This document shows positions 3 to 35,900 of a stretch of DNA of 35,900 bases, one piece after another. The stretch is taken from positions 1 to 35,900 of IMG/VR virus record IMGVR_UViG_3300048838_000397; one strand, 5' to 3'. This stretch comes from a virus. Every line of letters begins with the position of its first letter. Positions within the stretch are counted from its first letter, which is position 1. The position numbers and the translations under genes were made by a program. The notes below the pieces were generated by a model, which saw only the letters and a program-made list of their open reading frames with translations, did not search any database and was not told the DNA's origin.

Positions 3-299
3 CAGGTTAAAGACCTCGACATGCCTTGGTATTTCGAGGAGATGCTGCCGGGGCTGGTAACGGCCAACGGCGTGCGACTCGACACGATGGAGGAGATCGC
101 CGAAACTGGCATCGGGCCGATCGACCTCCTCGAACTCATGTGGGTAGCGATGGTCGTGAACTTCCGCCCTACCTCCACCGCCCGCGCTATGTTCGATGGG
201 AGCGCCGGGGCGGTTCAAAGTCCGGAAAACAGGACGAACGGGAAATCGAGCTACAGAGGAGGCGCGACGAAGGATGGCCAAGCGGCCCCAATACAATAG
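3..299 (+). CDS. Tail assembly chaperone, upstream frame (5' partial)
   Basis: This gene lies directly before the tape measure, where tailed phages encode the chaperone that coats the tape measure during tail assembly. The frame is open from the window edge, so the true start may lie outside. A possible internal start is the ATG at 21. The protein-like part runs through the acidic, hydrophobic stretch to about position 200 (motifs EEMLPGLV and DLLELMWVAM). After that the frame becomes Gly/Ser/Asn-rich and stops at 299, while the -1 frame becomes protein-like. That is the usual arrangement of gpG/gpGT-type chaperones, in which a minority of ribosomes shift to -1 to make a longer product. The assignment rests on position and frame behaviour, not on a strong motif. 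Confidence 0.6.
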   Translation, partial: QVKDLDMPWYFEEMLPGLVTANGVRLDTMEEIAETGIGPIDLLELMWVAMVVNFRPTSTARAMFDGSAGAVQSPENRTNGKSSYRGGATKDGQAAPIQ

Positions 300-493
300 G
301 CGACTGGCTGATATGGCGGCCGATAATGGAGGGCAAAACGACATGGACCGAAGTCTCGCAAAATGACCTCTACTGGCTGCTAGACCTCAATGAGGCGCTC
401 GACGTCTATCAGGATATGAACGACCTCGACGTGAGACCACCTATTTTGCCGGGATCGACTGGCGTTTCGGCGGTACGATTTAAGGGATTCTAA
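200..493 (+). CDS. Tail assembly chaperone, -1 frameshift extension
   Basis: The -1 frame relative to the upstream chaperone frame reads as a real protein from roughly 200-230 to the stop at 491-493. It has an Arg/Glu-rich helix, then WLIWRPIMEGKTTW and an acidic NEALDVYQDMNDLDV segment. The same frame before about 200 is an Arg-rich shadow, and no well-placed start precedes the coding part except an ATG at 326. A -1 shift is therefore the best explanation. The candidate slip site is the heptamer G_GAA_AAC at 224-230, where the A-site codon re-pairs perfectly as AAA but the P-site re-pairing is imperfect. The stop overlaps the tape-measure start (TAATG), as expected for a T-domain ending at the tape measure. 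The slip position is inferred. Confidence 0.55.
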   Translation, partial: ERRGGSKSGKQDEREIELQRRRDEGWPSGPNTIGDWLIWRPIMEGKTTWTEVSQNDLYWLLDLNEALDVYQDMNDLDVRPPILPGSTGVSAVRFKGF

Positions 494-2388
494 TGGCCAC
501 AGCACTACGAGAGATTTTCCTTGCACTCGGCATCGATACGAAGGCCGCGGTGCAGGGCTTGCACGAGGCCGACAAGGCTGTCGACGCCAGCAAGAAAAAC
601 CTCAAAGAACTCGACGAGCGCAACGAAAAGCTCAAACAGGGTTTCAAGGATTTTGGCTCGAAGGTCGCTAGCGGTGCCAAGATCGCCGCCGTTGCCCTGA
701 CGGCCGCCACGACAGCGACGGCGCTGTTTTTCGACCGTTGGAGCAAGGGCGCTCAGGAGATCGAGCGAACCTCCAAATCATACGGGATAGGCACGGACGC
801 GCTACAGGAGCTGCGGTTCGCTGCGGAAAAACTCGGAGGCGAGGGCGAGTCCATCACCGAGGTGTTTAAGGAAATGGCGATCCGCATCACCGAGGTGGCG
901 GAGACGGGCACGGGTCCGGCCACAGATGCACTCACGTTGCTCAAGCTCAAGGCTGAGGACCTCAAAAAACTTCGGCCCGAGCAACAGTTCGAAGTTCTCG
1001 CCGATGCGATAGCAAAAGTCGGCGACGAGGGGACGCGATTTTTTATAAAGGACTCTCTGTTCGGCGAGGAGGGCGGAATCAAGATCGGCAACCTGCTTGA
1101 GCAGGGCTCGGCTGGAATTGCCAAGTTTCGCGAGGAGGCTCGTTCGCTCGGTGTAGTCCTCGACAAGGACGCGATCAAGCAGGCCAACGAGCTGCGCGGT
1201 TCGTTTTTCACGCTGCACAAAACAGGAGAGGGGCTGGTCAACCTCGTTGCAACGAGGCTCTCGCCGAAAATCAAAGACATCGCCGACAGGTTCCTAGCGT
1301 GGGCTAAGGCGAACAAAGACGTGATCGCCACGCGCGTCGAGAAGACGATCAGTATGCTGGTCGACGGAATATCGAAGCTTGCGCCACTACTGGGCGACAC
1401 GCTCGACGCGTTCAATAATTTAGTCACTTCGGTCGGAGGTCTCGACAATGCCCTCTACGGCTCGGCCGCAGCGTGGGCGGCTTGGCAACTGGCCGCACTC
1501 ACGGCGATTGGTCCAGTGGGTGCCGCCATTGCAGCGCTGACAACAGGGCTTGCGGTCGGTGCCGGCCTGGCAAAATATGCGCAGTCGTTCCAAGTCGAAC
1601 TTCAGAACCTTCGAACTTCGGAGACTCAGCAATTCAATTCCGCTGCGAGTCTGCTGGAATCTCCATCGTCCGGCCTGCCGGGAGAGGCAGAGGCCCGCGC
1701 ACGGCTTGAGCAGGAACTCATAAATTTCGGGCTATTGACGCAGCTCGACAAAGGCAAACTTCGATCGGCCCAGCTGCAGGCCGACATCGACGCTCAGCTC
1801 GCGGAGATTGGCAAGGCTGCGCTAGGGTTTGGCGAGTTCACCGATCTTGAGCCAACGAACATAACGACGACGGATTCACCCGCGTCGATGCGCCTTGGCA
1901 AGATCGCAAAGCCGGGGGACAAGGCTCCAGAGTCGCGCGTCACAGCGAAGAGCCTCCTCCTCGAAAAACAGAAGCGCGCGCGCGAGGAGCAGGACCTCCG
2001 CAACGCAATCGACGAGCTCGACCGCGTGCGCCCTGGCTCGGAGGGTGGCGCTCGCCAACTCATCGAGTCCGCCAAAGCGGAAGCGTTGCAGCGGCTGTCG
2101 AACACGAGCGACCTGTCGATCAACCAGCTCATCGCCTCGGCGGTCGGCCAGGATACCGGATTCGGAGGCGCCCAACTTCGGCCCGCTGGACTCGGCACGA
2201 CAATCAACAACATCGACGCCAGCGTCACGTTCAACATGGGTGGCATCGAGGTCGCGGCGTCACTTGCTGGCTCCGTCTCGGGCAACGCTCAGGCGGCCGG
2301 CTCGACCATCGGCGAGTCAGTGGCTTCCGTGCTGCAAGGCGTCCTGAACACCGCATTCCAGGCGCAGAGAGGGCAGATCATTGGTTGA
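493..2388 (+). CDS. Tail tape measure protein
   Basis: This 631-residue protein is the largest of the tail operon and follows the chaperone. It has an N-terminal coiled coil (about residues 20-60, Lys/Glu/Asp-rich), a hydrophobic Ala-rich stretch near 65-80, and the segment around residues 98-115 containing YGIGTDALQELRFAAEKLGG. That segment is typical of tape measures of this class (a TDALQxLRxAAE motif). A second hydrophobic Ala/Gly-rich region lies near 325-360, and another helix-rich part follows. At about 1.5 angstrom per residue, the general rule for tape measures, 631 residues would suit a tail of roughly 90-100 nm. The ATG overlaps the chaperone stop by one base. In the mature tail it sets tube length and leaves at DNA ejection. 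Confidence 0.88.
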   Translation: MATALREIFLALGIDTKAAVQGLHEADKAVDASKKNLKELDERNEKLKQGFKDFGSKVASGAKIAAVALTAATTATALFFDRWSKGAQEIERTSKSYGIGTDALQELRFAAEKLGGEGESITEVFKEMAIRITEVAETGTGPATDALTLLKLKAEDLKKLRPEQQFEVLADAIAKVGDEGTRFFIKDSLFGEEGGIKIGNLLEQGSAGIAKFREEARSLGVVLDKDAIKQANELRGSFFTLHKTGEGLVNLVATRLSPKIKDIADRFLAWAKANKDVIATRVEKTISMLVDGISKLAPLLGDTLDAFNNLVTSVGGLDNALYGSAAAWAAWQLAALTAIGPVGAAIAALTTGLAVGAGLAKYAQSFQVELQNLRTSETQQFNSAASLLESPSSGLPGEAEARARLEQELINFGLLTQLDKGKLRSAQLQADIDAQLAEIGKAALGFGEFTDLEPTNITTTDSPASMRLGKIAKPGDKAPESRVTAKSLLLEKQKRAREEQDLRNAIDELDRVRPGSEGGARQLIESAKAEALQRLSNTSDLSINQLIASAVGQDTGFGGAQLRPAGLGTTINNIDASVTFNMGGIEVAASLAGSVSGNAQAAGSTIGESVASVLQGVLNTAFQAQRGQIIG

Positions 2389-2602
2389 CAAAAAAGAGCT
2401 TGAGGAGATGATCCTAAGGGCTGCCGCGGCTAGATTCCCGTATGGCGACACGATTAGGATTGTCACGTCTAGGGAGATTTTCAAATGCGCGGGTCCAATG
2501 ACAGTGGACACGTCGAAGATTTCAGAGTCCGACGTAGACCTAGAAACCATCAAGAAGCTTCTTGTTGATGCGATAAAATCGGAGATGGTCGCCGATGGCT
2601 AA
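2381..2602 (+). CDS. Small hypothetical tail-operon protein
   Basis: This 73-residue protein is not recognised. The start is a TTG at 2381, chosen because an AGAGAGGG ribosome-binding site sits 7-8 bases upstream inside the end of the tape-measure gene. The two genes overlap by 8 bases, and the end overlaps the next gene by 8. The sequence is acidic and mixed alpha/beta with no membrane segment. Lying between the tape measure and the Dit-like protein, it may be a small tail-assembly or tail-tip factor, but nothing in it shows this. Confidence 0.65.
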   Translation: MVDKKELEEMILRAAAARFPYGDTIRIVTSREIFKCAGPMTVDTSKISESDVDLETIKKLLVDAIKSEMVADG

Positions 2603-3119
2603 TTACAATCAGTTCGCACTGTTCGCGGCAAAACGCCCGTCGATTGGCAATTTAATTATGAATTGCACAATCAGCGAGGTTCATGGCGGCGAGTATGTTA
2701 TATCAGATGCGCCGATCGAGAATGGATCCACTATATCGGATCACATAATTAAACTTCCGACAACACTCAAACTCGTCGGGATATTTTCTCCTTTCCCGGA
2801 CAATGGAGACGCTGAGGTTCGAAACGCAATCGCTGGCAACCCCGAAGCCAAGGCCACGTGGGCGCAGATTCGTGCGCTGGCCGATTCGCGCGTGCCGTTC
2901 GATGTCTACACCTACCTCGAACTCTACAAAAACATGGCCTTCGCATTGTTCTCGCACACCGAGGACGACACGCAAAACGGCGGAATCATTCGCCTTGAAG
3001 CGACATTGAGGCAACTCGAATTCGCCGCAACGATCAACGAGCTGAACATTGCCGACAGTGTGCTCAATAACCTCTCATCGGCTGACGACGTTGGCCTGCA
3101 AGGTACGACCGTACTATGA
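2595..3119 (+). CDS. Dit-like baseplate/tail adaptor protein
   Basis: This 174-residue protein resembles the Dit-like N-terminal domain found in contractile phages with simple baseplates. Visible features are an early beta-rich part with an EHGGEYVISDAPIENGS-type stretch, then SDHIIKLPTTLKLVGIFS (a 'disulfide/asp-his' like beta strand pattern), and a helical part containing DVYTYLELYKNMAF. In related phages this protein joins the end of the tail tube to the hub. It is followed at once by plug, hub and spike genes, which supports the role. The ATG lies after a GGAGATGG ribosome-binding site. The family assignment comes from the pattern of conserved residues, not from an alignment. Confidence 0.7.
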   Translation: MANYNQFALFAAKRPSIGNLIMNCTISEVHGGEYVISDAPIENGSTISDHIIKLPTTLKLVGIFSPFPDNGDAEVRNAIAGNPEAKATWAQIRALADSRVPFDVYTYLELYKNMAFALFSHTEDDTQNGGIIRLEATLRQLEFAATINELNIADSVLNNLSSADDVGLQGTTVL

Positions 3120-3496
3120 GCACAGTCCAGATTAACGGACCACAACGAAGCCGGTCGATCGATATTTCGTGGCGATGCGTGCTCGATTCCGTCGTGTACC
3201 GGTTTCGCCTAAAATATCGCGTGCGCTATGACTGCTGGGACATGCAGATTTCGCAGTCGGACGGCACGGTTGTGCTTGATGGCTTCCGCGTAACCGAGGG
3301 CAATGACATGCTCGCGCCCTACACCGACACGCGATTGCCAGCGGGGCAACTGATTTGCGTCGATACGCAGGGGCTAGGCACCACGCCGACACGCAACGAC
3401 TGGATCGAGCGCCATGTCCTGACCTACACCAGCCCCGTCGCTGTCGACTTCGACAATGATTTACGATCTGAGCCAGCTGGGGGGCCATTTCTATAA
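3116..3496 (+). CDS. Baseplate plug protein (Pam3 gp18-like, DUF6983)
   Basis: This 126-residue all-beta protein matches the pattern of the small plug proteins described from the cyanophage Pam3 baseplate. It has an aromatic strand (VYRFRLKYRVRYDCWDMQI), a DGTVVLDGFRVTEGNDML turn, then LPAGQLICVDTQGLG and a PTRNDW motif ahead of a final strand ending in LTYTS. In that family the plug closes the hub channel. Its place between the Dit-like and hub genes agrees. It overlaps the upstream gene by ATGA and shares one base with the hub gene (TAATG). Confidence is fairly high from motif order and gene order. Confidence 0.75.
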   Translation: MSTVQINGPQRSRSIDISWRCVLDSVVYRFRLKYRVRYDCWDMQISQSDGTVVLDGFRVTEGNDMLAPYTDTRLPAGQLICVDTQGLGTTPTRNDWIERHVLTYTSPVAVDFDNDLRSEPAGGPFL

Positions 3497-4449
3497 TGCA
3501 GGCCCCGCGGCGCACACTCTCGGCGAATATCTTCGCCCAAAACAACCGGATCGAAATCAACGATCCGCTGATGGACCCGCAGCTTGAAATGGACTTCGCG
3601 TGCACGATGTCCATTTCTCCTGACGCAAACACGGCCTCACTACGGATCCTGAACCTATCGAGGGCGACGCGCGAGGCAATCGCCGGCGTGGCCAAGCGCG
3701 ACCTCGATGTCTCAGGGATCATCGCCGGGAACCCAGCGGAATACGGCGCGCTTGCTGGCCTCAGCGTCGTCCAGACCACGATAGTGAACCGCGGCGACTG
3801 CTACGTCGAGATCTACGGCGGCTATGCCCCGCGGCCCGTGCTGATGTTCGCGGGCTCGTGCCAATGGGCGCGGCACCATCACGACGGGCCAACGTGGGTC
3901 ACAGAAATGCAGATCGGCGATGGCCTGTCCACTATGATGGAGGGCGTAACATCGAGAGCATTCCCCCCGCGCGCGACCACGTACGAAGTCGTTGAATACC
4001 TCATTGGGACCATGGCGCTGGGCCGGGGGAACCTCAGCGAGGCCACTCTTGCCGCCGCAATGGGCTCGCAAAATTCGAGCTTCCCGTTTGGATGGACCTC
4101 GTTCGGAGACGCCAAGTGGGCGCTCTCGGAGATCCTCGGCCGCACGGGCGAATGGTTCGTTGACCGTGGCGATTTTTTTGTGGTGCCCCGTGGCGAGGCG
4201 TTGCCGGATGCCCCGGTAATCCTGTCGTCCGACACCGGGATGATCCACAGCCCCGAGCCAGGAGAGGCCGGCAAGCTCCACGTGCGCAGTATCATGCGCC
4301 CCGATATTCGAATTGGACGCAAGGTTCGAGTCGTTGGCCCGCAATACGAGGGCGTCTACCGGGCCGAGGTGGTCACCCACGTCGTAAATAACCGAGGTGG
4401 ATCCGCGATAACGGACGTGCTATTGTCGGTTGGACCGGGGGCATTTTGA
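3496..4449 (+). CDS. Baseplate hub protein (gp27/gp44-like)
   Basis: This 317-residue protein has the layout of hub proteins of simple contractile tails. A first beta domain contains NRIEINDPLMDPQLEMDF and the segment SLRILNLSRATREAI, a hub-type INLSxxTRxxI motif. A central helical domain and a final beta domain follow, the last containing SPEPGEAGKLHVRSIMRPDI and GRKVRVVG. In such baseplates a hub trimer surrounds the spike and continues the tube. The neighbours are plug upstream and Gp138-type spike downstream. The stop overlaps the TTG start of the spike gene by four bases. The assignment rests on motif and gene order. Confidence 0.75.
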   Translation: MQAPRRTLSANIFAQNNRIEINDPLMDPQLEMDFACTMSISPDANTASLRILNLSRATREAIAGVAKRDLDVSGIIAGNPAEYGALAGLSVVQTTIVNRGDCYVEIYGGYAPRPVLMFAGSCQWARHHHDGPTWVTEMQIGDGLSTMMEGVTSRAFPPRATTYEVVEYLIGTMALGRGNLSEATLAAAMGSQNSSFPFGWTSFGDAKWALSEILGRTGEWFVDRGDFFVVPRGEALPDAPVILSSDTGMIHSPEPGEAGKLHVRSIMRPDIRIGRKVRVVGPQYEGVYRAEVVTHVVNNRGGSAITDVLLSVGPGAF

Positions 4450-5150
4450 GCGAAGCGCAACCAGACCTCAACGATGTTTTTCGCGTCGCATTTGAGCGCC
4501 TGCAAGCCGATATTCGCACGGCAACCGTCGGCACGGTAACGCGATTCACCCGCTCGCCGAATCGTGAGTGTTCCGTTCGGGTGGACATGCTGGCGCAGCT
4601 TCGGAGCGGCGACGCGGTGGAGATCCCCGAGGTCGATCGCGTGCCCATCGTGTGGCCGTTCGGCGGCGGATGGTCGGCAGACGCTGACCTTGCCATCGGC
4701 GAGCAGGTGTTGCTCCTGGTGATCGATCGAGACATTTCGAGCTGGCTCCCCGCTGGCGGCGAAGTTGAGCCGACGCGTCGCGCGCTGCACAAAATAACGA
4801 ACGCCGTAGCGATTCCGGGACTGTGGTCAATCAACAACCAGAGCACACAGGCGCCAGCGCCTGGCGAGCTGCGAATTGGCGCGCATTCAAGCGCATCGCC
4901 ACGCCTCACGCTGGGCACCCTGCCGGCTCCGAATGCATTAATTGAGGCGACGACAATCAAGCTTGGGGCCGGTGCGACTCCGCTGCAAGGGGCGGCGAGA
5001 GTTGGCGACGACGTCGTCCCGGATGTGACGATGGCAACGTGGATTAGTGCAGTCACTACATTCATCAATACATTAGCGTCTGGAACGCTAATACTGCCGT
5101 CAGATTTTGGGCTGATATTTTCCGGTTCAACGAAAACGAGGATCGAATGA
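4446..5150 (+). CDS. Baseplate spike protein with Gp138 N-terminal OB-fold domain
   Basis: This 234-residue protein shows the Gp138_N pattern of tail spikes: an N-terminal helix, then TVGTVTRFT, EIPEVDRVPIVWPFGGG, and AIGEQVLLLVIDRDISSW followed by RRALHKITNAVAIPGL. The C-terminal part, from about residue 140, is Gly/Thr/Ala-rich and beta-like and ends in a hydrophobic segment. A trimer of this protein would form the membrane-piercing tip. The start is a TTG overlapping the hub stop. No TTG/ATG alternative fits as well, because the conserved helix begins right after it. Confidence 0.8.
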   Translation: MSEAQPDLNDVFRVAFERLQADIRTATVGTVTRFTRSPNRECSVRVDMLAQLRSGDAVEIPEVDRVPIVWPFGGGWSADADLAIGEQVLLLVIDRDISSWLPAGGEVEPTRRALHKITNAVAIPGLWSINNQSTQAPAPGELRIGAHSSASPRLTLGTLPAPNALIEATTIKLGAGATPLQGAARVGDDVVPDVTMATWISAVTTFINTLASGTLILPSDFGLIFSGSTKTRIE

Positions 5151-5572
5151 ACAGGCACCTAATTCTTGGATGGTATGAGGACCACGCGGGCGAGTGCGAG
5201 ATTCCTGGGCCTCGCTCAAATTCCAAGATCATCGCATGGATTCGTGAGTTTTTCCCGCGGGCTACCGATGACTCAACCGTTGCCTGGTGTGGCATTGCGA
5301 GGCATCAGGCTGCCAAATTCAGCGAAACACCATCGCCGAAATATCCGTTTCGCGCGAAGTCGTGGCTCAACGTAGGCGAGCCAATCGACCTCGAAGACGC
5401 CATGCCGGGCGATACACTAATCTTCAAACGCGACGCCGGTGGACACGTTGGTGTCTTTGTTAGGCTCCACGAGACACAAGGATTCATCGTCGTCCTGGGC
5501 GGCAATCAAAAAAATCGAATCGGCGAGTCGGTCTACCCGATTAAAAACCTCCTAGGAATTCGCCGCGTATGA
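5147..5572 (+). CDS. Peptidoglycan hydrolase-like protein (TIGR02594/CHAP-type)
   Basis: This 141-residue protein matches the TIGR02594 pattern, a papain-like (NlpC/P60-CHAP type) amidase or peptidase fold. It has a candidate catalytic Cys at residue 48 in TVAWCGIA, the SWLNVGEPI segment at 72-80, the PGDTLIF strand at 87-93, a candidate catalytic His at residue 100 in GGHVGVFV, and the LGGNQ signature at 117-121. It has no signal peptide or membrane segment. It sits between the spike and wedge genes, so it may be a baseplate-borne wall hydrolase that helps penetration. No other endolysin is visible in the window, so it could equally be the endolysin. Confidence 0.8.
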   Translation: MNRHLILGWYEDHAGECEIPGPRSNSKIIAWIREFFPRATDDSTVAWCGIARHQAAKFSETPSPKYPFRAKSWLNVGEPIDLEDAMPGDTLIFKRDAGGHVGVFVRLHETQGFIVVLGGNQKNRIGESVYPIKNLLGIRRV

Positions 5573-31715: not shown

Positions 31716-32084
31716 ATGACCACGATCTATGTCGACTACGATGTTCCCAGTGCCGCCTTTACTCGCATTGAATCCCTTGCGCTCAACCGTTTCGAGCGCA
31801 ATCTGAATTGGAACGGCGCCACCATTTTGGTGCGGCGAGGCGAGTACACATATATAGATGCCGCCCACAGAAAGCGAAGAAAAATGAACGAATCCGAATA
31901 CTCACAAGAACTCATCAATGCAGTCGTCGACCACGCTCGGCCAATGACAGGAGGGCAGTCATGGCAGTGGTCCCAAATTGTGGAGCTCGTCCGCGAAGAA
32001 GTGAGCGAGGATGTAGATGCTCCGCAACGCGTTGCCGATGAGATCCGCGAGGCGAATGGATTCACACCACTCCCCACCGAATAA
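31716..32084 (+). CDS. Hypothetical protein upstream of the first ribozyme
   Basis: This 122-residue protein starts at the ATG at 31716 (MTTIYVDYDVPSAAF), preferred over GTG at 31662. It has a beta-rich N-terminal half (NWNGATILVRRGEYTYIDAAHR) and a helical, acidic C-terminal half (SEYSQELINAVVDHAR). An internal ATG at 31884, itself preceded by AGCGAAG, could give the second half alone. The stop lies two bases before the first hammerhead. Function unknown. Confidence 0.6.
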   Translation: MTTIYVDYDVPSAAFTRIESLALNRFERNLNWNGATILVRRGEYTYIDAAHRKRRKMNESEYSQELINAVVDHARPMTGGQSWQWSQIVELVREEVSEDVDAPQRVADEIREANGFTPLPTE

Positions 32085-32086
32085 TA

Positions 32087-32136
32087 GGTCGAAACGCCTG
32101 CGGGCGTCTGCACTTCAGGAGTGCACTGAGGAGACC
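32087..32136 (+). ncRNA. Type II hammerhead ribozyme 1
   Basis: All conserved parts appear in type II order. Stem II arms are GGTC (32087-32090) and GACC (32133-32136). GAAA lies at 32091-32094. Stem III has A15.1 at 32094 paired with U16.1 at 32107 and four G-C/C-G pairs closing a TGCG loop. The cleavage C is 32108, in GTC. Stem I is TGCACT (32109-32114) paired perfectly with AGTGCA (32120-32125) around TCAGG. The core CTGAGGA lies at 32126-32132. Self-cleavage is predicted between 32108 and 32109, leaving the gene at 32140 with a hairpin 5' leader. Confidence 0.88.
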
Positions 32137-32139
32137 ACC

Positions 32140-32367
32140 ATGACCACCGAGATCTACACTGCATCATTTTCCGTTGGAGCACGCACAGAAATCTATGAGT
32201 ACGCCGTCAAGGCGAGTTCGTTCGACGAGGCCTTTGGTCTCGCCCTCAAAAAGAAAAACAAGAAAAATCCACTCGTCAAGAAATGGAATACATGCGGCAT
32301 CCGCTGCAAGAGTGAGGGTGGAAAGGTTTGGGATTCAGATTCAAAAAGACTGATGGCTGACTATTAG
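32140..32367 (+). CDS. Small hypothetical protein between two ribozymes
   Basis: This 75-residue protein starts at the ATG at 32140. Its ribosome-binding site GAGGAG (32128-32133) is part of the hammerhead core just upstream. The sequence is beta-like (TEIYTASFSVGARTEIYEYAV), then very basic (LKKKNKKNPLVKKW) with two Cys (TCGIRCKSEGGK). It might bind nucleic acid. The stop at 32365-32367 touches the next ribozyme. The frame upstream to 32017 is a shadow. Confidence 0.65.
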   Translation: MTTEIYTASFSVGARTEIYEYAVKASSFDEAFGLALKKKNKKNPLVKKWNTCGIRCKSEGGKVWDSDSKRLMADY

Positions 32368-32425
32368 GCCGAAACCTAGCGCCTAGGCGCGACGGTCTGC
32401 CCGTGATGCGGGCGCTGAAGAGGCT
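32367..32425 (+). ncRNA. Type II hammerhead ribozyme 2
   Basis: It has the same order as the first. Stem II arms are GGCC (32367-32370) and GGCT (32422-32425), four pairs with one G-U. GAAA lies at 32371-32374. Stem III is ACC/GGT (32374-32376 with 32394-32396), then an internal loop and a GCGC/GCGC helix with a CTAG loop. The cleavage C is 32397. Stem I is TGCCCG (32398-32403) with CGGGCG (32409-32414), one G-U, loop TGATG. The core CTGAAGA lies at 32415-32421. Predicted cleavage is between 32397 and 32398. All invariant bases are present, and the stems differ from ribozyme 1 by covarying pairs. Confidence 0.85.
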
Positions 32426-32428
32426 ATT

Positions 32429-32659
32429 ATGAAAATTAGAAAGGTGAGGCAAACACTAGTTGCAACGCTATCCCGTGAGGATAGCAGATTCTTTGAGGTG
32501 CACCGACAGGACGCCGGATGCACATCAGAGCAGAGAGAGAGGTGGCTCGCTATGCAGGACTCGCTTCGAGCCGCTGCCGAGAAGCGCAAGCTCCTCACTG
32601 TCGAAGTTTACGCCGCCAAGCGATATGGCGGACATCAAGTGGCAGAGATCGATGTGTAG
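32429..32659 (+). CDS. Small basic hypothetical protein downstream of ribozyme 2
   Basis: This 76-residue protein begins at the ATG at 32429; its ribosome-binding site GAGG overlaps the second hammerhead core (32415-32421) and lies 6 bases from the start. It is mixed and charged (TLVATLSREDSRFFEVH, TSEQRERWLAMQDSLRAAAEKRK), with a possible helical middle and a beta end. Not recognised. A strong hairpin follows its stop. Confidence 0.62.
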   Translation: MKIRKVRQTLVATLSREDSRFFEVHRQDAGCTSEQRERWLAMQDSLRAAAEKRKLLTVEVYAAKRYGGHQVAEIDV

Positions 32660-33648: not shown

Positions 33649-35900
33649 GTGCCGTTTCCGACCGATGGCCCGTTTGTTGCCGGCAACCTCACATGGGACA
33701 GCGTCCTCGATGCGGCCGTGCCTGGATTCCCGGGCAAGACGTTTCGCATCATGCTGGACGACCTCAAGGTCGACACTGGCGGAATTATTTCTCCGGACGA
33801 TGTCCCCACGAAGGTTGGGGCAGTTTACGGGAATACTGTAGACACGTTCATGCGGGTCGCGTGGCCGGTGATTGCCAATATCATTGCAGGTGGTTCTGGC
33901 ACTTCAATTATCAGCCCGACAGCATTCGCGGGCGACGTAGATGATTACAATCCTACCGGGTGGGGCACGGCAACACATGTCCGGCTAGACCCTGGTGGTG
34001 CAAATCGGACGGTGTTTGGCTTCGTTGCCGGAGCTGTAGTCACTAAATTTATAACGAACATTTCCGACACGTACGAGATTACTATCCACAACGGCGCAAG
34101 CGGTTCATCTGCGTCGGCATCGTGGATATTGTGTCCGGACGAGAAGGACTTCGTGCTCGCGCCACTTGCTGGCGCGATTCTGTTTTACGATACGGCTTCG
34201 TCGAGGAACAAAATCATCGCTTTGCCGCGTGGGATTGTCGGAGCCACCGGAGCAACGGACAACGCTCTGGTTCGAGCCGACGGAACAAGCACTGACGCGA
34301 TTCAGGGCAGTGTTGCCACGCTGTCGGACATTGGATTTTTGAACGGGCTTACGCGCGTAGGTCTAAGCGCTAACACAAGCGTCGATGGACTCACCGCCGT
34401 TGGCTCGGGGCATACGCTAAACGGCCTCGATGGGGCAAAGTTCATTGACCTACTGCCAATTACTGGAGAAGCCCTTAGAAACACTACATACACGGCGCTA
34501 AATATTGAGCCATCGTCTGGAGCTGCCGCTGGTGCTGGGTGCATAGCTGGGCTCGTCTTGTCCGACGACATCAATGTGATGAAAGAGGCTGGCGTCGTAG
34601 CGGTTGGCGGCGTGGATGTTGCGCGCCAAACCGTTGGGTCGCTAGCCAACGCCGTTCAAATTTTAGTGGACCCAGCCGCGGTCGATGAAACGACTGCGCT
34701 GTCCAGTGGTGGCGGGGGCAATGTTGCGGTTTGGGCGACGACGTCCGACCATGTCTACATCGGAGCTGCCGCCCCGTTCTCACGCATCGCACTGGGCTTC
34801 GACGTCAAACCTGGCGGCGAGGGACTCGATTTATCGGTGAGTTTTTCGACTGGGGTCGGGACGTGGACAGTGTGCACATCGCTCACATTCGTTGTCGACT
34901 CGAATCGCCTGAACATCATGTTCGATCCGTCCGACTTCGTTGGACACGCTGTAGGAACATCCGGGCATTACTGGATTCGTCTCACGCGTAACAATGCATC
35001 GGCGCTGGCGGATGGGTCGACGCTCGACAGCGTTCGAGTTGCGGATGGTGGTACGTATTACTGGGACAAATTAGGGCGCGCTAAGTTTTCAGCGCTCGGC
35101 CTGGTGCCGCAATCGGCGAACCCTTCCATCATTGCCGGCAGCTCGATCTGGCTCGATGAATCCGATGCGCGAATGAAGCAGGGTTCGGAGACTCTGGCGT
35201 ACCTATCGGAGATCGGTGGGGGAGGCTCTGGCGACGTCGTCGGTCCAGCTGGAGCGACAGATAACGCGGTAGCTCGATTCGATTCGACGACTGGTAAGCT
35301 CCTACAAAACTCAGTAATCATCGCCACGGACGCGGGGGCGCTGTCTGGAATTACGACGATCAACGCTTCGGGCGCGGTGACGGCCTCGAACGTGTCGGGC
35401 AACAACACCGGCGACCAGACCATTACGCTCACGAGCGACGTCACTGGATCCGGAACTGGATCATTTGCGGCGACAATCGCCAATGATGCTGTGACCTACG
35501 CAAAAATACAAAATGTTTCGGCGGCCTCGAAGCTGTTGGGGCGCGGTGACTCTGGCTCGGGCGACGTGCAGGAGATTACGCTCGGCACAAATCTCTCGAT
35601 GAGCGGGACGACGCTCAACGCATCGGGAAGCTCTCCGAGCTACTCAATCATTTCTCCGACTTCGATTGGCGCGAATCAAAACAACTACGCGCCGACGAGC
35701 TGGTCGACGGCTGACATTGTGCGGCTCACGGCGTCCGGTGATTTTGACATCACCGGATTCGACGCGACGGCATCAACGCCTCGCAAGCTACTTTGGAATG
35801 TCGACACGGCCAACACATTCACGCTCAAAGACGAATCCGCGTCGTCCACCGCGGCGAATCGCATTCAGTGCCCGTATGGCACCGACTTGAAGATCCCTCC
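33649..35900 (+). CDS. Large tail-appendage or collar structural protein (3' partial)
   Basis: An open frame of at least 750 codons starts at a GTG at 33649, just after an in-frame TGA at 33643, and runs off the window. An ATG at 33751 is an alternative start. The N terminus reads VPFPTDGPFVAGNLTWDSVL and is followed by a beta-rich series of strands. The frame contains two related motifs, GATGATDNALVRADGTSTD and GPAGATDNAVARFDSTTGK, typical of phage tail-fibre and appendage proteins, and then SGNNTGDQTITLTSDVTGSG. It belongs to the structural block that must continue beyond the window. Host-receptor binding is possible but not shown. Confidence 0.75.
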   Translation, partial: MPFPTDGPFVAGNLTWDSVLDAAVPGFPGKTFRIMLDDLKVDTGGIISPDDVPTKVGAVYGNTVDTFMRVAWPVIANIIAGGSGTSIISPTAFAGDVDDYNPTGWGTATHVRLDPGGANRTVFGFVAGAVVTKFITNISDTYEITIHNGASGSSASASWILCPDEKDFVLAPLAGAILFYDTASSRNKIIALPRGIVGATGATDNALVRADGTSTDAIQGSVATLSDIGFLNGLTRVGLSANTSVDGLTAVGSGHTLNGLDGAKFIDLLPITGEALRNTTYTALNIEPSSGAAAGAGCIAGLVLSDDINVMKEAGVVAVGGVDVARQTVGSLANAVQILVDPAAVDETTALSSGGGGNVAVWATTSDHVYIGAAAPFSRIALGFDVKPGGEGLDLSVSFSTGVGTWTVCTSLTFVVDSNRLNIMFDPSDFVGHAVGTSGHYWIRLTRNNASALADGSTLDSVRVADGGTYYWDKLGRAKFSALGLVPQSANPSIIAGSSIWLDESDARMKQGSETLAYLSEIGGGGSGDVVGPAGATDNAVARFDSTTGKLLQNSVIIATDAGALSGITTINASGAVTASNVSGNNTGDQTITLTSDVTGSGTGSFAATIANDAVTYAKIQNVSAASKLLGRGDSGSGDVQEITLGTNLSMSGTTLNASGSSPSYSIISPTSIGANQNNYAPTSWSTADIVRLTASGDFDITGFDATASTPRKLLWNVDTANTFTLKDESASSTAANRIQCPYGTDLKIP

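Follow-up and report, generated by a model that had tools for sequence, protein, structure and literature searches.

Introduction

Do the two short gaps between three small genes of a phage contig encode self-cleaving RNAs and, if so, what would such RNAs do to the message that carries them? The question is raised by a 35,900-base stretch of the virus record IMGVR_UViG_3300048838_000397 (hereafter the window, meaning this stretch at its full length), for which a first-pass annotation made from the letters alone had proposed two type II hammerhead ribozymes, one in each gap. The role of hammerheads in bacteria and phages has been a question since 2011, when type II hammerheads clustered around single genes in prophages were described and the processing of long phage transcripts was proposed (PMC3088659). 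Arrays of this kind were cleaved in vitro, a triple array from A. tumefaciens was cut in E. coli, and an ArdA gene was found behind a hammerhead in Agrobacterium and Legionella (PMC3088659).

Results

Genes and phage setting of the locus

The window carries the gene set of a tailed, contractile-type phage, including tape measure, baseplate hub and wedge, terminase, portal, helicase and a VapE-type primase-helicase. Three small genes, all on the + strand, lie 3' of the primase, and the A-B and B-C gaps are occupied by the elements that we call HHR1 and HHR2; a promoter-like site was found in neither gap.

Gene A, 31716..32084, + strand: 122 aa from ATG 31716 (alternative starts ATG 31884 and GTG 31662), TAA stop at 32082-32084
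Gene B, 32140..32367, + strand: 75 aa, between HHR1 and HHR2, TAG stop at 32365-32367, its last base common with HHR2 stem II
Gene C, 32429..32659, + strand: 76 aa, 3' of HHR2

Genes A and B gave no Pfam or PHROG match and gene C no significant one; A and B are not paralogues. No relative of gene B was found among the viral contigs searched, and close relatives of gene B, the primase-helicase and the regional DNA were found neither in viral contigs nor among named phages. The terminase and primase are ~30-36% identical to those of many phages and thus provide no useful taxonomy. Farther downstream, an ORF of at least 750 aa (33649-35898), which runs past the window end, has a match to a DUF5907 repeat and none in PHROG.

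Identification of two type II hammerheads

Both strands of the window were scanned with a descriptor that required type II strand order, the exact core and a minimum of 4 pairs in stem I, 3 in stem II and 3 in stem III, which yielded exactly two perfect-core sites. These are HHR1 and HHR2, with the following elements.

HHR1, 32087..32136, + strand: type II hammerhead ribozyme (descriptor scan and covariance model, 59.7 bits, E 1.5e-19)
HHR1 stem II, 32087-32090/32133-32136, + strand
HHR1 GAA, 32091-32093, + strand
HHR1 stem III, 32094-32107, + strand
HHR1 predicted cleavage site, 32108..32109, + strand: after C17 of the GUC triplet, from hammerhead numbering
HHR1 stem I, 32109-32125, + strand
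HHR1 core CUGAGGA, 32126-32132, + strand
HHR2, 32367..32425, + strand: type II hammerhead ribozyme (descriptor scan and covariance model, 46 bits, E 1.7e-14)
HHR2 predicted cleavage site, 32397..32398, + strand: after C17 of the GUC triplet, from hammerhead numbering
HHR2 core CUGAAGA, 32415-32421, + strand

With ^ marking the predicted cut, HHR1 reads GGUC GAA ACGCC UGCG GGCGU C^ UGCACUU CAG GAGUGCA CUGAGGA GACC, and HHR2 reads GGCC GAA ACC UA GCGC CUAG GCGC GAC GGU C^ UGCCCGU GAU GCGGGCG CUGAAGA GGCU. The invariant core (C3 U4 G5 A6 N7 G8 A9, G12 A13 A14, A15.1-U16.1, H17) is intact in both copies, and descriptor and covariance model agree on the topology, with stems I and III closed, stem II open and the strand order II-III-I-II. 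In both, loop I is a U-NNN-G triloop and the start codon lies 3 nt past stem II. The stem sequences differ between the copies, with pairing kept and little in common beyond the core. The first-pass annotation had described every invariant element in type II order, differing stems that still pair, and cuts at 32108/32109 and 32397/32398, and its description holds, the cut positions being those predicted by hammerhead numbering. In fold calculations the hammerhead is the minimum-energy structure for HHR1 and lies 2.4 kcal/mol above the minimum for HHR2. Stem III of HHR2 (32374-32396) contains an internal loop UA/GAC, which recurs as UA/GAU in two other phages (L001:148 and L133:2949) and may be a conserved structural motif rather than a defect.

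The library search to which the same annotation had looked for confirmation failed: Rfam returned no match over the window at the gathering threshold, though the ribozymes look real. With the threshold relaxed, only HHR2 was picked up by Hammerhead_II (RF02276), at 16.2 bits where 37 are required, and HHR1 was not listed under RF02276. We attribute this miss to a limit of the library model with respect to a subfamily (see below), not to the sites.

Viral contigs were then scanned for the conserved pattern, which itself imposes pairing at a few bases only, and gave at least 120 contig stretches; the rest of the pairing is added by the descriptor, which fitted 84 of the 120 matches listed. A covariance model was built from an alignment of 41 relatives, free of redundancy, in which stem II has 4 bp and stem I 7 bp; the window was excluded from it. 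Run on the window with filters off, this model matched 32087-32136 with 59.7 bits (E 1.5e-19) and 32367-32425 with 46.0 bits (E 1.7e-14), the third-best score being 11.7 bits; these scores are independent of the pairing-based choice of relatives. In the alignment of the 41 relatives, 99.7% of the cells are paired, both sides change in 13 of 17 pairs, and pairing falls to 29-49% when partners are slid, but because the relatives were picked for pairing this covariation is partly circular, and the slide controls, together with the absence of descriptor sites in 100 dinucleotide shuffles of the window, make the case look somewhat stronger than it is. Overall, the assignment of HHR1 and HHR2 as type II hammerheads, one per gap before a small gene, is strongly supported by the sequence comparisons.

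Placement between genes

The ribozyme fills the whole intercistronic gap, and the upstream stop codon abuts stem II. In the window the distance from stop to stem II is 2 nt at HHR1, where TAATAG runs into the stem, and a one-base overlap at HHR2. Gene A itself ends in tandem in-frame stops (TAATAG, 32082-32087), the G of the TAG being the first base of HHR1 stem II.

Covariance-model matches in the 151 loci searched amounted to 247 distinct ribozymes, including HHR1 and HHR2. Taking as upstream stop that of the longest ORF with a stop near the ribozyme, regardless of distance, we found it from -5 to +3 nt relative to the start of stem II for 166 of 239 sense ribozymes (69%), as compared with 19/184 (10%) for the antisense control and 36/755 (5%) for random nearby positions. 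The same stop-codon placement was observed for 174/266 in new loci. The first-pass reading of one hammerhead per gap before a small gene is strongly supported by the independently built covariance model and by >240 relatives, in most of which the ribozyme is placed likewise.

Exactly one gene lies in 71 of the 125 gaps between adjacent ribozymes, and one locus carries 11 copies, another 14. The window shows the pattern of an intercistronic array, with at least two ribozymes on the gene strand, each between genes. The 179 proteins encoded behind ribozymes (median 94 residues) fall into 173 clusters, and thus the ribozyme is tied to a place between genes, not to a gene. Few of these proteins match Pfam, one ArdA and three DUF932 among them; an ArdA anti-restriction gene is thus again seen behind a hammerhead here, in related loci, and likewise three DUF932 genes.

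The catalytic core as a probable Shine-Dalgarno sequence

What the first-pass annotation overlooked is that the 3' core strand is likely the Shine-Dalgarno sequence (SD) of the next gene.

AGGAG, SD-like, 32129..32133, + strand: core A6 G7 G8 A9 and stem II G10.1 of HHR1, 6 nt before AUG 32140
GAGG, SD-like and weaker than the HHR1 site, 32420..32423, + strand: core G8 A9 and stem II G10.1 G10.2 of HHR2, 5 nt before AUG 32429

The AUG lies 7 nt past A9 in both cases, and AGGAG is the sole SD at a proper distance for the gene B start. Position 7 of the hammerhead is free to vary, and a G there turns CUGANGAG into CUGAGGAG. HHR1 represents the full form of the overlap (N7 = G giving AGGAG, an AUG 4-11 nt past A9 and an ORF of at least 40 codons), and HHR2 a weaker form with N7 = A and GAGG.

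Starts were then called blind to any SD, as an AUG opening at least 40 codons 4-11 nt past A9. Among ribozymes with a stem II of at least 4 bp, such an AUG followed 17/25 with N7 = G vs. 6/109 with another base (p 5e-11). HHR2 accounts for one of the 6/109 non-G cases, and for most of the rest there is, in addition, a later start preceded by a separate SD. Among model-defined ribozymes the counts were 17/34 vs. 9/191 (p 2e-10), and a later start with its own SD was rarer with N7 = G (14/34) than with another base (158/191, p 1e-6). These p-values are somewhat optimistic, since they treat ribozymes as independent and shared proteins link some contigs (several groups are separate). In a held-out sample, obtained by a scan with a different stem I pattern, the counts were 6/26 vs. 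2/224 (p 1.7e-5). The spacing from core to AUG is mostly 6-8 nt. Locus L131 allows the two forms to be compared within one phage: CCAAGGAGA...AUG comes after each of two CUGAUGA ribozymes, and after one CUGAGGA ribozyme there is AACAUG and no further site.

In total, a CUGAGGA core that together with G10.1 would serve as SD for an AUG 4-11 nt later is present in the window and about 22 scattered relatives. Judged from these comparisons, the association between N7 = G and the start replicates, with a lower share in the held-out sample, and the core-SD overlap is a real minority variant. A stronger statement, by which N7 = G would be enough to recognize the overlap, was rejected, as the majority of the N7 = G ribozymes in the held-out sample carry a separate SD; the L216 and L217 family combines N7 = G with an SD of its own. 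In secondary-structure calculations, the AGGAG of HHR1 is about equally unpaired before and after cleavage and the SD of HHR2 is less accessible after it; folding thus shows no unmasking, and any masking would depend on inaccessibility of the tertiary core.

A subfamily with a 4-bp stem II

HHR1 and HHR2 belong to a tailless class in which stem II has 4 bp and loop I is closed by a conserved U-NAN-G (UNANG-type); by inspection, both are without the pseudoknot between loop I and a tail 3' of stem II that characterizes the RF02276/Perreault consensus. The ribozymes reported by Rfam at threshold in 14 loci mostly have a 3-bp stem II and a tail able to pair with loop I, as in the published pseudoknot consensus. 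Among loci selected to represent the 4-bp class, L014 is the only one reported by Rfam at threshold, and only three copies in it. RF02276 was applied to L014, L117, L123, L128, L075, L033, L111, L131, L139 and L084, where it recovered the pseudoknot class and missed most of the 4-bp class. The 4-bp class being mostly invisible to the current Rfam model, the abundance of these ribozymes in phages is probably underestimated, and an updated or separate Rfam family would be useful.

The largest array seen here is on a 65-kb phage contig (IMGVR_UViG_3300033551_000003, loci L129 and L140), with >20 type II hammerhead matches in gene gaps. Locus L014 (positions 174-5156; contig IMGVR_UViG_3300038412_000035) carries eleven hammerheads with very similar stems in 5 kb; two copies have the core CCGAUGA instead of CUGAUGA and are possibly decaying or variant. 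A recurring variant of the junction between core and stem II has one extra base past the core (CUGANGAU before stem II; L122:1519, L124:4100, L005:8431, L042:3107 and others). The L014 and L128 arrays have no DNA match in named phages. Short matches to the consensus ribozyme in Microbacterium, Streptomyces, Nostoc and Rhizobium phages were rejected, there being no covariance-model match in the four loci tested.

Discussion

Taken as a whole, the best explanation of the locus, which we consider probable, is that co-transcriptional cleavage yields hairpin-ended monocistronic mRNAs and that, in the core-SD variant, catalysis excludes ribosome binding. The parts of this explanation that can be read from the DNA are the fold, the covariation, the stop/start placement and the core-SD overlap. 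As the operon is transcribed, each ribozyme would cut itself after C17, and the products, held by the 4-bp stem II only, would part, so that each gene would obtain its own mRNA; cuts at HHR1 and HHR2 would release a 289-nt RNA (32109-32397) with gene B only. It follows from the topology that no strand order but type II has a closed hairpin on each side of the cut, and hammerhead cleavage chemistry generates 5'-OH and 2',3'-cyclic phosphate ends. The upstream piece would thus carry the stem III hairpin and a 2',3'-cyclic phosphate at its 3' end and the downstream piece begin with a 5'-OH and the stem I hairpin, and these terminal hairpins would presumably protect the RNAs at either end against the main decay enzymes. 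Processing of a polycistronic message, as the first-pass annotation had suggested, is the most likely role of these ribozymes, but it is not a new one (PMC3088659).

In the core-SD variant, A6-G7-G8-A9-G10.1 would act both as catalytic core and as SD, and since AGGAG is made of core positions, a folded ribozyme and a bound 30S subunit should be mutually exclusive: cleavage would free the ribosome site, and a ribosome that binds early would prevent the cut. The more specific proposal, a natural phage hammerhead class in which the core is the SD of the next gene and self-cleavage and ribosome binding compete for five nucleotides as a one-shot translational switch, is put forward tentatively, as a possibility that we hold with somewhat more doubt than belief. 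Among the observations that weigh against the best explanation are the HHR2 hammerhead fold, which is not the minimum, and the weak GAGG of HHR2. Compact phage genomes could also juxtapose core and ribosome site without regulation.

Evenly balanced, in our estimate, is a simpler account by which the ribozymes provide plain mRNA processing and insulation, the core-SD overlap being compaction only, with no effect on the timing or amount of translation. Most relatives have a separate downstream SD (158/191 of the non-G ribozymes) and evidently work without overlap, stop codons abut just as tightly, as compaction alone would give, and the fold calculations reveal no unmasking after cleavage. Against this stand the tight AUG spacing, mostly 6-8 nt from the core, and the location of AGGAG wholly within the core and the first stem II pair, where competition between the 30S subunit and catalysis is hard to avoid. 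A use of the ribozyme as a conserved DNA boundary, a recombination linker for swapping small gene cassettes, would fit the similar ribozymes that precede unrelated genes (173 clusters for 179 proteins), the common single-gene cassettes (71/125 gaps) and the close likeness of copies within one phage (L014); we nevertheless regard it as unlikely, as compensatory stem changes serve RNA structure and weaken DNA homology, HHR1 and HHR2 share little outside the core, and the stop/start placement is strand-specific.

Two further readings have still less to recommend them. The 289-nt piece might become a stable circular mRNA if its ends were joined by the hammerhead reaction in reverse or by an RtcB-type ligase of the host; the predicted ends (5'-OH and 2',3'-cyclic phosphate) are chemically suitable, and the ribozyme-flanked circular RNAs of eukaryotic retrozymes offer a parallel (PMC4918200). 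A re-formed hammerhead, however, needs matching stem II arms, which in the window would pair GGCC with GACC (one mismatch in 4) and which are compatible in only 45 of 104 neighbouring pairs; circular or spliced products were sought and none seen in PMC3088659, and we consider this outcome very improbable. That the two sites are decayed or chance hammerhead-like sequences, and inactive, agrees with scores below the Rfam threshold and with an HHR2 minimum-energy structure that is not a hammerhead, but it is scarcely credible in view of invariant positions that are all intact in both copies, strong scores with an independent covariance model, exact intercistronic placement and no sites in 100 shuffles.

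Returning to the competition between catalysis and ribosome binding, its novelty can be assessed against several known systems. The clusters of Perreault et al. 2011 (RF02276) share with the window the same permutation, the catalytic core and the multi-copy flanking of single genes in phage operons; their consensus has a pseudoknot between loop I and a 3' tail, in contrast to the 4-bp stem II, UNANG-type loop I, missing tail and probable use of the core as SD in the window. The terms Shine-Dalgarno and ribosome are absent from that paper (PMC3088659). HHphage, found in the haloviruses HF1 and HF2 at 13 nt before a start codon (PMC3088659), is likewise a phage hammerhead close to a start; it differs in being a core variant, in archaeal viruses, present as a single copy before a helicase gene, with no mention of a ribosome site. 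Engineered hammerhead expression platforms sequester the SD (Wieland and Hartig 2008, as cited in PMC5052635), and twister versions of such platforms exist (PMC5052635). As proposed for the window, a 5' UTR ribozyme ties up the SD in these platforms and accessibility depends on cleavage; they are man-made and ligand-controlled with the SD paired in a stem, whereas the window is natural and intercistronic, with the likely SD in the core and no ligand known. RiboJ (the sTRSV hammerhead plus a hairpin), left at the 5' end, raises transcript about twofold (PMC6206723). Here too, as we propose for the window, the cut sets a defined 5' end, with a hairpin shortly before the ribosome site; RiboJ is, however, engineered and promoter-proximal, and uses a different hammerhead and a separate ribosome site. 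In the open-licence literature we found no later treatment of phage hammerhead arrays and no natural hammerhead core linked to an SD, which is no proof of absence. Thus, arrays between phage genes and the idea of mRNA cutting were already published in 2011, and the core-SD overlap seems undescribed.

It is this overlap, rather than the array itself, that deserves follow-up. The stop/start fit, the indifference to the gene and the core-SD overlap point to gene-by-gene control of phage mRNA, an idea within reach of small reporter constructs. If the switch reading is true, a message cut first would be freed as a monocistronic mRNA, and one reached first by a ribosome would stay polycistronic; a ribozyme of this type would be nature's parallel to the synthetic switches in which a ribozyme conceals the ribosome site.
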